Positions 15,929 to 20,113 of a DNA stretch of 64,000 nt are shown in pieces. The stretch comes from Geodermatophilus sabuli (GTDB lineage: Bacteria; Actinomycetota; Actinomycetes; Mycobacteriales; Geodermatophilaceae): positions 1-64,000 of the forward strand of contig NZ_JAAGWF010000030.1 in NCBI RefSeq assembly GCF_010686765.1, in the 5' to 3' direction. The position numbers and the translations under genes are program-made. Position 1 is the first letter of the stretch. Each line of letters starts with the position of its first letter. The notes below the pieces were generated by a model, which was given only the letters and a program-made list of their open reading frames with translations, did not search any database and was not told the origin of the DNA.

Positions 15929-16351
15929 TCACCGGTCCTGCCCCGTCCGGCCGTGCTGCCCCGGCGCAGGCGGTGGCACCGCGCACGCGGCGGTGCCACC
16001 GGGCAGCCGGTGCCGGTTGGCCGCGACCAGCCGGTAGACCCGCGGCGCGATCGCGCTGACCGGCCAGCACGACAGCAGGACGCCGAGGACCGCCCAGAGC
16101 CCTTCGGCTGCCCGGAGGGCCCGCCCGACCGCCGGCGCGCCGCCGGACACCTCGCCGTCCCGGCCGATCCACAGCACCTCCGAGCGCGCGCGGGCCGCCG
16201 TCACGCCCAGCGACGCCAGGTCGGCGGACTGCCAGGCGACCACGGAGGAGTCGGCGGGGAGCAGCCGTCGGGCCACGGTGGCGCAGCGGCCGCAGAAGGC
16301 GCAGTCGCCGTCGAAGAGCAGCACCGCTCCCGGCGGCCGCGGCCCGGTCAC
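15929..16351 (-). CDS. DCC-family thiol-disulfide oxidoreductase-like protein (DUF393)
   Basis: A 140-residue DCC protein: FDGDCAFCGRC near the N-terminus gives the family its name and carries a CxxC redox pair, followed by the AWQSADLASLGVT and VLWIGRDGEVSGGAPA segments. The C-terminal half has a hydrophobic stretch. The GTG start overlaps the sigma-factor stop (GTGA), so it is co-transcribed with the ECF41-type sigma gene, a known genomic partner of that sigma family. Substrate unknown. Confidence 0.85.
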   Translation of the reverse strand: MTGPRPPGAVLLFDGDCAFCGRCATVARRLLPADSSVVAWQSADLASLGVTAARARSEVLWIGRDGEVSGGAPAVGRALRAAEGLWAVLGVLLSCWPVSAIAPRVYRLVAANRHRLPGGTAACAVPPPAPGQHGRTGQDR

Positions 16352-17235
16352 GGCCGGATCCCCCGGACCGCGGTGAGCTTGCTGGGGTTCAGCTGGGCCC
16401 GTACCGCGGTGACCAGGCCGTCGGCGGTGTCGAGGTCGACGGTGCCCAGCAGCTCGTCGCCCACGTGCACGAGCACGCCCACCCGGCCGTTGAGCGGCGT
16501 CAGTGTCCAGCGCGCGCCCGACACGTCGGAGCTGATGGCCGCGAGGAAGCGGGCGGCCTTGGCCGCTCCCGTGATCGGCCGGAGTGCCGCCTTCTGGGTG
16601 CCGCCGGCGTCGGTGAGCACCACGACGTCCGGCGCGAGGACCGCGAGCAGCGCCGAGACCTGGCCGTCGACGGCGGCTCGCATGAAGGCCTCGGTGACGC
16701 GGACGTGCTCGGCCGGGTCGGTCGCCGCCCGGGGACGTCGCTCCCGGACGTGCCGGCGCGCGCGGGACGCGAGCTGGCGGACCGCGGGCTCCGAGCGGTC
16801 GACGGCCCGGGCCACCTCGTCGTGTCCGAAGCCGAACAGGTCGTGCAGCACGAACACGACCCGTTCCAGGGGCGACAGCGACTCGAGCACCACGAGGAAG
16901 GCCTGGGACACGCTCTCGGCCAGCAGCACGGGCTGGGCGGGGTCGTCGCCGTCCTCCGCGGTGGGCACCGGCTCGGGCAGCCACGGGCCGATGTAGCTCT
17001 CCTGGCGGTGTCGGCGGGACCGCAGGCCGTTGAGCGCCAGCCGGGTGACCGTGGTGGTGAGGAAGGCCCGGGGATCGCGCACGCCGGCGTGGTCGACGGT
17101 GGACCAGCGCAGCCAGGTCTCCTGCACGACGTCCTCCGCGTCCGCGATGCTGCCCAGGACCCGGTAGGCGACACCGGTCAGCAGCGACCGGTGCTGCTCG
17201 AAGGTGTCCGCCGGTCCGGGGCTCGGAGTGGTCAC
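16348..17235 (-). CDS. ECF41-type RNA polymerase sigma factor with C-terminal SnoaL-like domain
   Basis: A 295-residue sigma factor. The sigma-2 region includes YRVLGSIADAEDVVQETWLRW and sigma-4 includes LSPLERVVFVLHDLFGFGHDEVA. An NTF2/SnoaL-like C-terminal domain of about 120 residues follows. The linker motif YIGPWLPEP and the C-terminal NPSKL (family NPDKL) are ECF41 hallmarks; the family DGGGK is degenerate here (DAGGTQK). ECF41 factors lack an anti-sigma protein and are self-regulated by this domain. The GTG at 17235 (V4 of the longest frame) is chosen because the ECF41-like promoter ends at the upstream ATG, leaving GTG as a leaderless start. Confidence 0.9.
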   Translation of the reverse strand: MTTPSPGPADTFEQHRSLLTGVAYRVLGSIADAEDVVQETWLRWSTVDHAGVRDPRAFLTTTVTRLALNGLRSRRHRQESYIGPWLPEPVPTAEDGDDPAQPVLLAESVSQAFLVVLESLSPLERVVFVLHDLFGFGHDEVARAVDRSEPAVRQLASRARRHVRERRPRAATDPAEHVRVTEAFMRAAVDGQVSALLAVLAPDVVVLTDAGGTQKAALRPITGAAKAARFLAAISSDVSGARWTLTPLNGRVGVLVHVGDELLGTVDLDTADGLVTAVRAQLNPSKLTAVRGIRP

Positions 17236-17244
17236 GAGGGACAT

Positions 17245-17270
17245 GACACCGCGTCCACCCCGGTCGTGAC
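17245..17270 (-). promoter_or_regulatory. ECF41-like promoter of the sigma gene
   Basis: On the minus strand GTCACG (17270-17265), 14 bases, then GGTGTC (17250-17245). The divergent promoter at 17298-17323 has the same two hexamers with the same 14-base spacing. Published ECF41 promoters have TGTCACA and CGTC. The start site would fall at about the GTG at 17235. Autoregulation is inferred. Confidence 0.7.
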
Positions 17271-17296
17271 GTCGACCGCGCCGCGCGACGGCGCCA

Positions 17297-17323
17297 TGTC
17301 ACGATCTCCGGCCCCGCGGTGTC
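17297..17323 (+). promoter_or_regulatory. ECF41-like promoter of the FAD oxidoreductase
   Basis: TGTCACG (17297-17303) as -35 and GGTGTC (17318-17323) as -10, separated like the divergent sigma-gene promoter. Eight bases lie between the -10 and the ATG at 17332, so the transcript is probably leaderless. This makes the oxidoreductase the likely target of the neighbouring sigma factor. Confidence 0.72.
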
Positions 17324-17331
17324 TGCTCGGC

Positions 17332-18543
17332 ATGAGCAGAGACGAACTGGTGGTGGTGGGCGGGGGCCTGGCCGGGCTGGTCGCTGCGGTGACGGCGGCC
17401 GAGGCGGGCGCGGACGTGCGGCTCGTGGAGAGCCACTCCCGGCTGGGCGGACGGGCGCGCTCGACGCCGGCGCCCTTCGTGGCCAACGAGGGACCGCACG
17501 TCTTCTACGGGGACGGTGCGGCGTGGTCGTGGCTCCGCCGCCGGGGACTGGCGGACCCGTACCGGCGGCTGCCGCCGGCGGCCGCCGCCGGGATCCGCTT
17601 CCGGCGGGGCGGGCGGGTGCGCGCCACCCCACCGCCGGGCCTGGTGCGGCTGCTGCCCCGGCGGCGCCGGACCGCGCCGGTCGAGCAGGACTTCCGCAGC
17701 TGGGTGGCCGGCACGCACGGGGACGAGGTGGCGGCGGCGGCCTCCTCGTTCGCCGGTGTGGCGACGTTCACGGCCGACCCCGGACGGCTCTCGGCGGCCT
17801 TCGTGTGGGAGCGGCTGCTGCGGGTGACCAACCCGGCCGGGGGTCCGCGCTACGTCGTCGGCGGCTGGGGGGCGCTGGTCGACCGGCTCGAGGCGCGTGC
17901 CCGCGGTCTCGGCGTCGTCATCGAGACCGGGAGCCACGTCGCCACCCTGCCCGACCGGCCGACCGTCGTCGCCACCTCGCTGCCGGCCGCCCGTGCGCTG
18001 CTCGGCCGGCCGCTGGCGACCCCGGCCGTCTCGGGCGCCACCCTGCTGCTCGACGTCGCCGTCCCGCGGCGGCGCGGTGACCTCTTCGTCGTCTCCGACA
18101 TCGACGAAGCGGGCTGGGTGGAGGCGTTCTCCCGGGTCGACCCGAGCCTCGCCCCGGCGGGGAGCGACCTGGTCCAGGCCCAGCGACCGCTGCGGGAGGG
18201 GGAGGACCGGGCGGCGGCCTCCCGGGCCCTGGCGGAGCTGGTGGACGGCGCGGTGCCCGGCTGGCAGGAGCGGACGACGTGGTGCCGCTCCGCCGTGGCG
18301 CGCGGCCGGACCGGCGCGCTCGACCTGCCCGGCTCCACGTGGCGGGACCGGCCGGCCGTGGACCAGGGCGACGACGTCTTCCTGGCCGGCGACGAGGTGG
18401 CCGCACCCGGGCTGCTGTCCGAGGTCTCGGTCACCAGCGCCGTCACGGCGGCCTCGGCGGCGGTCACGCGGCTGGGCGTTCGGCACTCCGCGGTGGACGG
18501 GGTCCCGCGTCGGGGGCTGGTGGCGCCCCGGCGGTTGGGCTAG
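17332..18543 (+). CDS. FAD-dependent oxidoreductase (amine-oxidase/phytoene-desaturase-like)
   Basis: A 403-residue flavoprotein: dinucleotide-binding VVGGGLAGLVAAVTAAEAG, acidic end ESHSRLGGRARS, a middle substrate domain, and a C-terminal FAD motif VFLAGDEVAAPGLLSEVSVTSA. The family includes phytoene desaturases, protoporphyrinogen oxidase and flavin amine oxidases; the exact reaction cannot be told. The ATG at 17332 lies eight bases after an ECF41-like -10 element. It is divergent from the sigma/DCC operon, and oxidoreductases are known ECF41-linked targets. Confidence 0.85.
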   Translation: MSRDELVVVGGGLAGLVAAVTAAEAGADVRLVESHSRLGGRARSTPAPFVANEGPHVFYGDGAAWSWLRRRGLADPYRRLPPAAAAGIRFRRGGRVRATPPPGLVRLLPRRRRTAPVEQDFRSWVAGTHGDEVAAAASSFAGVATFTADPGRLSAAFVWERLLRVTNPAGGPRYVVGGWGALVDRLEARARGLGVVIETGSHVATLPDRPTVVATSLPAARALLGRPLATPAVSGATLLLDVAVPRRRGDLFVVSDIDEAGWVEAFSRVDPSLAPAGSDLVQAQRPLREGEDRAAASRALAELVDGAVPGWQERTTWCRSAVARGRTGALDLPGSTWRDRPAVDQGDDVFLAGDEVAAPGLLSEVSVTSAVTAASAAVTRLGVRHSAVDGVPRRGLVAPRRLG

Positions 18544-18578: not shown

Positions 18579-19301
18579 ATGGACGCCGCTGTCACCGTCA
18601 CCGATCTGGTCATCGACCGCGGGCGCCGCCGCGTGCTGGACGGCTTGTCGTGCGCGGTGCCCCGCGGGGAGGTGACCGGCCTCCTCGGCCCCAGTGGCAG
18701 CGGCAAGACGACGCTGCTGCGCGCGATCGTCGGCGTCCAGCGGACCCGATCGGGGCAGGTCACCGTCCTCGGGTGCCCGGCCGGCGCTCCGCCGCTGCGC
18801 ACGCGGGTCGGCTACGTCACCCAGGCCCCCAGCGTCTACGCGGACCTGACCGTGCGGGAGAACGCCCGGTTCTTCGCCGCCCTGTACGGCCGCGGTGCAC
18901 GAGAGGCCGACACCGCGATCGCCGACGTCGGGTTGGCCGACGCCGCCGGACAACTGGTCGCCGACCTCTCCGGCGGCCAGATGAGCCGGGCGTCCCTGGC
19001 CTGCGCGCTGGTCGGCCGGCCGGAGCTGCTGGTCCTGGACGAGCCGACGGTCGGGCTGGACCCGGTGCTGCGGGCCGAGCTGTGGGACCGGTTCCACGCC
19101 CTCGCCGCCGAGGGGACCACCCTGATCGTGTCCAGCCACGTGATGGACGAGGCCGGCCGCTGCGACCGGCTGCTGCTGCTGCGCGAGGGTGCCCTGCTCG
19201 CGGACTCGACGCCGACCGAACTGCGCGCACGGACCGGCACCGACGACCTCGACGAGGCGTTCCTGACCCTCGTCCGCTCCCAGCCGGGGGTGGCGGCATG
19301 A
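18579..19301 (+). CDS. ABC transporter ATP-binding protein
   Basis: A 240-residue ATPase: Walker A GPSGSGKTTLL, Q-loop VTQAPSVYADLTV, signature LSGGQMSR, Walker B LLVLDEPTVG and H-loop SSHVM. Compact DrrA/NodI-like type without a long C-terminal domain. The ATG follows GGGGAGG. Its stop overlaps the permease start (ATGA), so the two form one exporter. A rare AT-rich patch lies just upstream, 18545-18570. Confidence 0.92.
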   Translation: MDAAVTVTDLVIDRGRRRVLDGLSCAVPRGEVTGLLGPSGSGKTTLLRAIVGVQRTRSGQVTVLGCPAGAPPLRTRVGYVTQAPSVYADLTVRENARFFAALYGRGAREADTAIADVGLADAAGQLVADLSGGQMSRASLACALVGRPELLVLDEPTVGLDPVLRAELWDRFHALAAEGTTLIVSSHVMDEAGRCDRLLLLREGALLADSTPTELRARTGTDDLDEAFLTLVRSQPGVAA

Positions 19302-20113
19302 CCACGGCGACCCGCACCACCGACACCGGCCGGACCGTCGGCCCCCGGGCGCGGACCACCGGCGTCCGGCTCACGGCGGCCGTCACCGGCCGCGTCCTGC
19401 GACAGCTGCGTCACGACCCCCGCACGATCGCGATGATGGTCGTGCTGCCGAGCATCCTGCTGGGGCTGCTGTACCTGCTCTGGAAGGACCTCCCGACCCT
19501 CCCGGGGCAGCCCAGCACCTTCGACCGCGTCGGCCTGACCATGCTCGGCGTCTTCCCGTTCGTGGTGATGTTCCTGGTCACCAGCATCGCGATGCTGCGG
19601 GAGCGCACGACGGGCACGCTCGAACGACTGCTCACCACCCCGCTCGCAAGGCTGGACCTGCTGCTCGGCTACGGCCTCGCCTTCGGGCTGGCGGCGGCGG
19701 TCCAGGCGGTGGTGACGGTGGCCGTCGCGACGACGTTCTACGACCTGGACGTCGCCGGATCGCTCTGGCTGGTCGTGGTCATCGCGGTCGTGGACGCCGT
19801 CCTCGGGGTCGCCCTGGGGTTGCTGGCCAGCGCCTTCGCCCGCAGCGAGTTCCAGGCGGTGCAGTTCATGCCGGTGGTCGTGCTGCCGCAGTTCTTCCTC
19901 TGCGGCCTGCTCGTGCCCCGGGAGCAGATGGCCGGCTGGCTGCAGGCGATCAGCGACGTCCTGCCGCTGACCTACGCGGTCGAGGCGCTGCAGGAGGTCG
20001 GCCGGTCGGCGGCCGGGACGGGCACCCTGTGGCGGGACGTCGGAGTCGTCGCCGCGGTCGCCCTGCTCGCCCTCGCCCTGGGCGCGGCGACCCTGCGCAG
20101 GCGCAGCGGCTGA
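19298..20113 (+). CDS. ABC-2 family transporter permease (DrrB/NodJ-like)
   Basis: A 271-residue permease with six transmembrane helices and the ABC-2 signature around RERTTGTLERLLTTPLARLDLLLGY and QFMPVVVLPQFFLCGLLVPREQMAGWLQ. Partners the ATPase with which it overlaps by four bases. DrrB-like exporters move drugs or lipids; the substrate here is unknown. Confidence 0.92.
   Translation: MTTATRTTDTGRTVGPRARTTGVRLTAAVTGRVLRQLRHDPRTIAMMVVLPSILLGLLYLLWKDLPTLPGQPSTFDRVGLTMLGVFPFVVMFLVTSIAMLRERTTGTLERLLTTPLARLDLLLGYGLAFGLAAAVQAVVTVAVATTFYDLDVAGSLWLVVVIAVVDAVLGVALGLLASAFARSEFQAVQFMPVVVLPQFFLCGLLVPREQMAGWLQAISDVLPLTYAVEALQEVGRSAAGTGTLWRDVGVVAAVALLALALGAATLRRRSG

Follow-up and report, generated by a model that had tools for sequence, protein, structure and literature searches.

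Organization of the ECF41 locus

A 64,000-nt stretch of the Geodermatophilus sabuli genome (assembly GCF_010686765.1, contig NZ_JAAGWF010000030.1, positions 1 to 64,000), hereafter referred to as the window, contains a gene of an extracytoplasmic function (ECF) sigma factor of the group ECF41, located divergently to a gene of an FAD-dependent oxidoreductase. Two promoter sites, each directed towards one of these genes, lie between them, and a gene of a DCC1-like protein follows the sigma factor gene (Table 1). Residue 72 of the sigma factor, which is Asn in the window protein, appears to track the first base of the promoter -10 element across ECF41 relatives; this base is T at both sites of the window. 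Residues are numbered from ATG 17244.

Table 1. Features of the ECF41 module and of the adjacent genes, with positions in the window
Feature	Position	Strand	Remarks
DCC1-like thiol-disulfide oxidoreductase gene	15929-16351	minus	PF04134; GTG start overlaps the sigma factor stop codon
ECF41 sigma factor gene	16348-17235	minus	start GTG 17235 proposed; open reading frame also opens at ATG 17244
Codon AAC of sigma factor Asn72	17029-17031	minus	residue covarying with the first -10 base
Sigma-side promoter	17245-17270	minus	GTCACG-N14-GGTGTC, GTCACGACCGGGGTGGACGCGGTGTC; reads into the ECF41 gene
FAD-side promoter	17297-17323	plus	TGTCACG-N16-TGTC; the GTCACG-N14-GGTGTC part at 17298-17323 is GTCACGATCTCCGGCCCCGCGGTGTC
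FAD-dependent oxidoreductase gene (flavin amine oxidase / NAD_binding_8 type)	17332-18543	plus	PF01593, 1.5e-16; predicted target
ABC ATPase gene	18579-19301	plus	begins 35 nt after the FAD gene stop codon
ABC-2 permease gene	19298-20113	plus	downstream of the ABC ATPase gene

The sigma factor (P0002) consists of sigma2, a linker with the WLPEP motif, sigma4, a SnoaL-like C-terminal extension and the NPSKL end; WLPEP is named as a motif of ECF41 sigma factors by Wecke et al. 2012 (PMC3426412). Domains PF04542 (1.3e-14) and PF08281 (5e-13) were found for sigma2 and sigma4, respectively, and the match of the C-terminal part to PF12680 (E 2.8e-4, 21.9 bits) is under the 27-bit cut-off of this family. 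The score of the SigJ family NF007214, 314.4, is above its cut-off of 271, and the match covers residues 12-294 of 298, while TIGR02957 reaches residue 293-294 with a score of 315.8, slightly below its cut-off of 323.25. The structure of SigJ of Mycobacterium tuberculosis (PDB 5xe7) matches window residues 14-239, namely, sigma2, sigma4 and most of the extension, with an E-value of 1.5e-52, although SigJ carries Asp (RLGLDKLRS) at the place of residue 72. The assignment to ECF41 made in the initial annotation is thus supported by the domains, by the family and structure matches and by the WLPEP motif.

Neither neighbour of the sigma factor gene, the FAD oxidoreductase or the DCC1-like protein, is an anti-sigma factor. 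The adjoining gene of a carboxymuconolactone decarboxylase, oxidoreductase or epimerase (COE), which is a hallmark of ECF41, is represented by the FAD oxidoreductase. The module resembles the ECF41/COE systems (PMC3426412) in the WLPEP linker, the C-terminal extension, the promoters of the TGTCACA-N16-CGTC type, the oxidoreductase neighbour and the divergent gene order, and differs from them in the -10 element TGTC at both promoters, in the apparently leaderless genes and in the presence of the DCC gene behind the sigma factor gene.

Divergent promoter sites

The sequence GTCACG-N14-GGTGTC has two exact matches in the whole window, one on each strand, both in the region between the ECF41 and FAD genes, as the initial annotation had claimed. 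The half-sites of the two promoters are identical and their spacer sequences are different. The expected number of exact matches is 0.08, and none of 100 dinucleotide shuffles of the window contained two matches. With two mismatches allowed, 21 matches were found against 18.9 expected, which is the chance level; therefore, the signal is contained in the exact pair and not in the loose pattern, which was set aside as a definition of the regulon.

The ECF41 promoter TGTCACA-N16-CGTC was described by Wecke et al. 2012 (PMC3426412), with tests in Bacillus licheniformis and Rhodobacter sphaeroides. According to the same source, the divergent order of ECF and COE genes occurs in 55 of 373 cases, often with the promoter motif before both genes, and the motif precedes 36 ECF and 41 COE genes. 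The FAD-side TGTCACG-N16-TGTC and the sigma-side CGTCACG-N16-TGTC are close variants of this promoter, and at both sites T replaces C at the first base of the published -10 element. Sites TGTCAC-N17-YGTC are present in 12 copies in the genome (one in the reversed control), half of which are located at or among ECF41 genes, namely, in the window, on contig C60 and, in four cases, on contig C15. In 97 ECF41 loci, including the window, 76 sites with a gap of 16-18 bases were found in 64 loci, and the reversed pattern was found twice. Accordingly, the promoters are of the ECF41 type, as initially annotated, and their arrangement in the module is of an already known kind.

The search of the 4.79 Mb genome for exact GTCACG-N14-GGTGTC revealed five matches, with none for the reversed pattern. 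Three of them, the window pair and one on contig C60, are located at ECF41 genes. The fourth match, C87:333781 (L004:930-1530), lies about 100 nt upstream of mraZ (PF02381, 4.6e-30) among GTGG repeats, which presumably resemble MraZ sites; it is probably a coincidence with these repeats, and no target is claimed. The fifth match, C114:213729, precedes no clear gene and was likewise not considered a target. The shorter pattern GTCAC-N16-GTGTC, with 21 genome matches and two in the reversed control, was rejected as a definition of the regulon, since 13 of the matches are GTCACC sites.

Covariation of residue 72 and the first -10 base

For the analysis of ECF41 relatives, 90 regions were taken, with the weakest matches left out. 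Set 1 comprised 108 aligned ECF41 proteins, for which the first -10 base was scored only as C or T. The later set, 61 sigma factors from the phylum, was obtained from 60 regions and drawn after the rule had been noticed, and any base was admitted. Proteins with fewer than 200 (set 1) or 140 (later set) matched query residues were dropped. Locus L239, which has mixed sites, was left out of the table of residues and bases of set 1, and the sigma factor of L194 with Ser72 was left out of the count of switches. The later set includes five sigma factors of an already sampled order (L277, L292 twice, L320 and L321), which have no site within 1.1 kb and were not counted. Plasmids were represented by 18 of 434 records.

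In set 1, residue 72 is Asn in all 26 T-type sigma factors, and among the 41 C-type sigma factors it is Asp in 40 and Ser in one. The column of residue 72 gave 0.964 bits, the second-best column 0.662 bits, and the tree of set 1 requires five changes between T and C, while none of 200 shuffles needed fewer than 15. In the later set, the 33 sigma factors with a site are distributed as Asp with C (22), Asn with T (8) and Asn with G (3), and the 18 plasmid loci, 15 of which belong to Pseudomonadota, as Asp with C (14), Asn with T (1) and three without a site. Mutual information was calculated for 100 sigma factors between alignment columns with at most 20% gaps and 14 promoter positions; residue 72 and the first -10 base are the top pair, with 0.951 of 1.134 bits, followed by a pair with 0.745 bits. 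When the nearest site of each sigma factor is considered, 99 ECF41 proteins (the Ser sigma factor excluded) comprise 62 with Asp and C, 33 with Asn and T and 4 with Asn and G. Independent switches between Asn and Asp on the tree number five with good support, or eight with all branches included, and all of them have the same direction.

Several further observations concern the -10 region. The nearest sites of the Asn-type sigma factors of L323, L326 and L334 have G as the first base (GGTC), possibly a third promoter class. Residues 77 and 79 are coupled, less strongly, with the base before the -10 element and residue 73 with the next base upstream, which may be due either to the reading of an extended -10 element or to shared ancestry. 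These couplings are not claimed, being weaker, and the distant residue 266 scores equally high. Residues 78-82 of sigmaL were suggested to read C-G just upstream of the -10 element (Lin et al. 2019, PMC6372665).

The structural position of residue 72 can be compared with that of sigmaH. An arginine of SigJ was placed at the position of sigmaH N88 (Li et al. 2019, PMC6411747); in combination with the alignment of the window sigma factor to SigJ, residue 72 therefore corresponds to the position of sigmaH N92. In the sigmaH structure, N92 contacts the -11 G:C pair of the -10 duplex (PMC6411747). This pair adjoins the base in question.

An ECF DNA-specificity code with residue-nucleotide pairs derived from autoregulated ECF promoters was reportedly presented by Todor et al. 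in 2020 (PNAS). The pair of residue 72 and the first -10 base is put forward here as a new observation, without a claim of priority over that code. For ECF41, this pair was not found in the accessible sections of PMC3426412, PMC11588781, PMC6372665, PMC6411747, PMC8103513 and PMC8999054.

Conservation of the module and the FAD gene as a target

Close orthologues of the FAD protein among 60 relatives were found in Geodermatophilus sp. TF02-6 of the same genus (G015, 79% identity) and in G048, a member of the same taxonomic order (61% identity); the third-best match has 35% identity. In the locus of TF02-6 (L036/L038), where the sigma factor is 78% identical, both promoters and both gaps to the start codons are retained: TGTCACA..CGTGTC followed after 8 nt by ATG on the FAD side, and TGTCACA..GGTGTC followed after 9 nt by GTG on the sigma side. 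As in the window, Asn72 is combined with TGTC. Unlike the window, TF02-6 contains a DUF6463 gene in place of the DCC gene, and the DNA between the sites is longer and, by eye, unrelated. In G048, the strict pattern is present at the FAD side only, again 8 nt before ATG.

A genome scan for relatives of the FAD protein revealed 67 loci. The regions upstream of the FAD gene were counted in 61 of 69 rows, including the window and G048; rows with identity below 44%, a late query start, location on the other strand or too little upstream DNA were left out. A site within about 220 nt upstream was found for 43 of the 61 orthologues, the window included, while the reversed control gave one and the shuffle expectation is 0.05. 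Sites are present in 11 of 13 orthologues with an ECF41 match in the fetched DNA and in 32 of 48 without it, and the first -10 base is C in 38 cases, T in 3 and G in 2. Since 43 of 61 orthologues have a site, 32 of them without an ECF41 gene in the fetched DNA, the FAD gene is predicted to be a widespread target of the ECF41 type, perhaps often served in trans. The view that FAD and ECF41 genes always occur together was dropped, as 48 of 61 orthologues have no ECF41 match in the fetched DNA.

Both claims of the initial annotation concerning regulation, autoregulation and control of the FAD oxidoreductase, are consistent with these data: the sigma-side site is kept in TF02-6 together with its 9-nt gap, and the FAD gene is preceded by a site both there and in most orthologues.

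Several FAD orthologues of Solirubrobacterales without a site adjoin a gene that resembles, by eye, a GntR/aminotransferase (MocR) regulator. A FAD gene without an ECF41 site and with a GntR/aminotransferase-like neighbour was observed in L043, L048, L058, L059, L063, L077 and L085 (Solirubrobacterales and kin), and an element ACTGGnACTGTA upstream of the FAD gene is common to L048, L058, L059, L063, L071 and L077.

Start codons and leaderless transcripts

The distance from the end of the -10 element to the start codon is 8 nt for ATG 17332 of the FAD gene and 9 nt for GTG 17235 of the sigma factor gene, in agreement with the 8-9 bases of the initial annotation. The start at GTG 17235 rather than at ATG 17244 is well supported by comparative data, because ATG 17244 is replaced by ATA in TF02-6 (L036), whereas the GTG is kept; the reassignment of the start made in the initial annotation is therefore retained.

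Among 175 distinct sites, ATG occurs at gap 8 in 14 and at gap 9 in 9 (23/175 together), while each of the gaps 4-7 and 10-20 has about 2. ATG or GTG at gaps 8 and 9 is represented by 30 codons, 26 of which open at least 150 codons. A second, broad peak of ATG is located 31-38 nt after the -10 element, consistent with genes that carry ribosome sites. A sharp peak of ATG at gap 3 was also observed, at 35 of 175 sites (for example, L149 and L172-L196); it is often TCCATG, lies upstream of the expected +1 and may be not a start codon but a conserved initial region. The -10 triplet of sigmaH is numbered G-11 T-10 T-9 (PMC6411747), and the +1 position eight bases past the triplet would therefore correspond to the A of ATG 17332. 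Judging from this geometry, both mRNAs are probably leaderless, as initially predicted from the sequence, with predicted 5' ends at or within 1-2 bases of the start codons.

ECF41 paralogues and the adjacent genes

Contig C60 contains an operon of a carboxymuconolactone decarboxylase gene (PF02627) located upstream of an ECF41 paralogue (L149), the product of which has 51% identity to the window sigma factor and Asn at the place of residue 72. The promoter of this operon, TGTCACG..CCGGTGTC, has the same GGTGTC at -10 as the window promoters and is one of the exact GTCACG-N14-GGTGTC matches. The sigma factor of contig C6 has Thr at residue 72. On contig C15, Asp was found in two of three sigma factors, the third match being too short to read at this position. 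Because Asn is combined with TGTC in the window and on C60, and Asp with CGTC on C15, cross-regulation between the window and C60 would be expected, and both are predicted to be separated from the C15 sigma factors.

The region C15:309000-329827 (L147, L148) contains an 18-kb ECF41 redox cluster, in which three ECF41 genes are accompanied by four or more sites of the CGTC type; these sites precede two Pyr_redox_2 proteins, a cytochrome b and an epimerase. The ECF41 match at C15:316417 (L147:7400-8068) starts at query residue 72, although its close kin are full length; a frameshift or an assembly error is possible.

The start codon of the DCC gene and the stop codon of the sigma factor gene overlap by 4 nt (GTGA, 16348-16351), and the two genes are probably co-transcribed. 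This part of the initial annotation is likely to hold, while a role of the DCC protein as a conserved partner found no support in relatives. A tblastn search with the DCC protein against the other 68 loci gave no match, nor did a search of seven genomes of the same genus at E 1e-5, in which a divergent homologue could be missed. With the DUF6463 gene occupying its position in TF02-6, the DCC gene was not included in the conserved unit.

Downstream of the FAD gene, no match to a sigma-70-type promoter or a terminator was found in the 35-nt gap before the ABC ATPase gene, and the ABC ATPase and permease genes may therefore be read-through members of the FAD transcript. No match to the ABC-2 permease was obtained in the other 68 FAD or ECF41 loci searched, and the ABC ATPase has weak matches (29-38% identity) in L042, L056, L068 and L103, each more than 1.2 kb from the FAD gene. 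The single target predicted by the initial annotation is doubtful in view of the promoter of the same class at the C60 operon and of the possible transcription of the ABC pair, and is better read as one local target.

Proposed mechanism and alternative explanations

We consider it highly probable, judging from the sites, their conservation and the covariation, that both divergent promoters, which are of the ECF41 class, are controlled by the ECF41 sigma factor encoded next to them, with Asn72 matching T of the -10 element. The SigJ-like protein, with its fused SnoaL-like regulatory domain, would thus activate the sigma factor and DCC genes from one promoter and the flavin oxidoreductase gene from the other. 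The RNA polymerase holoenzyme containing it would read TGTCAC or CGTCAC at -35 and TGTC at -10. Asn72, a residue of the final sigma2 helix, would match T at the first -10 base, and Asp of the relatives would match C; a hydrogen bond may be formed between Asn as the donor and the keto group of T or G, or between Asp as the acceptor and the amino group of C. By analogy with the ECF41 systems described in PMC3426412, the sigma factor would be released when a signal acts on its C-terminal domain. With moderate confidence, residue 72 may be regarded as a natural toggle (Asn for T or G, Asp for C), flipped repeatedly together with the promoters and splitting paralogues into channels.

A number of results weigh against this interpretation. 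The sign test on the five supported switches gives p 0.0625, and for T/C alone there are four pairs with p 0.125. When all sites of set 1 within 1.1 kb are counted, 6 of 75 depart from the rule (Asp with G in 2, Asn with G in 2, Asn with C in 1 and Ser with C in 1), three of which are separated from the sigma factor gene by 349-964 nt. No strict site was found for 41 of 108 sigma factors of set 1 and 28 of 61 of the later set, and it is missing at 2 of 13 FAD orthologues with a nearby ECF41 gene. In the plasmid set, almost every sigma factor has Asp, so that only one side of the rule is covered. The sigma-side -35 element of the window, CGTCAC, has one mismatch to the published TGTCAC. SigmaH of M. 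tuberculosis has Asn92 yet is listed as preferring C-G (PMC6372665), so the residue rule cannot cover all ECF groups.

The window promoters could be of the real ECF41 class and yet depend on the C60 paralogue, either for the most part or in addition to the neighbouring sigma factor. Such cross-talk is suggested by the Asn of the C60 sigma factor at the same place and by the start of the decarboxylase-sigma operon at a GGTGTC-type site that matches the window pattern exactly. It is nevertheless unlikely as an explanation of the locus: the adjacent divergent placement is kept in TF02-6, where the orthologue of the window sigma factor is the sole ECF41 match at E 1e-30, so that the neighbour would suffice there, and the window and C60 sigma factors share only 51% identity. 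Less probable still is that the match between Asn/Asp and T/C reflects the shared ancestry of a few clades and not a contact, for which the small number of independent switches and the presence of further alignment columns differing between the T and C classes speak. The match is, however, near-perfect, every switch has the same direction, the second-best column of set 1 explains far less, and the helix to which residue 72 belongs is, in sigmaH, in contact with the -10 duplex.

The remaining two explanations concern the sites themselves. The sigma factor might start at ATG 17244, with a longer mRNA initiated at a promoter located further upstream, the minus-strand site then not being its promoter; this ATG opens the longer open reading frame, and the site has CGTCAC at -35. 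We regard such a start as very improbable, since the 78% identical orthologue has ATA at this place and keeps GTG with the 9-nt gap, and since ATG directly follows the -10 element in none of 175 strict sites (the window sigma-side site, which begins with C, excluded). Finally, the sites were recognised from the pattern alone, and the exact match before mraZ resembles a chance overlap with other repeats, which would fit either operators bound by a different regulator or repeats arisen by chance, in both cases without relation to the sigma factor. This explanation is hardly credible, as the pattern is that of the tested ECF41 promoter and clusters at ECF41 genes, and the -10 base covaries with a residue of the sigma factor.

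Implications

The module is a textbook ECF41 arrangement, and its interest lies in the specificity rule. A widespread flavin oxidoreductase is marked as a candidate target of the ECF41 type, even without an adjoining ECF41 gene. A rule of one residue and one base bears on how similar sigma factor paralogues avoid cross-activating genes in one cell. If the rule is true, paralogues in genomes with multiple ECF41 genes would be split into at least two promoter channels, and the promoter class could be predicted from sigma factor sequences across many genomes.

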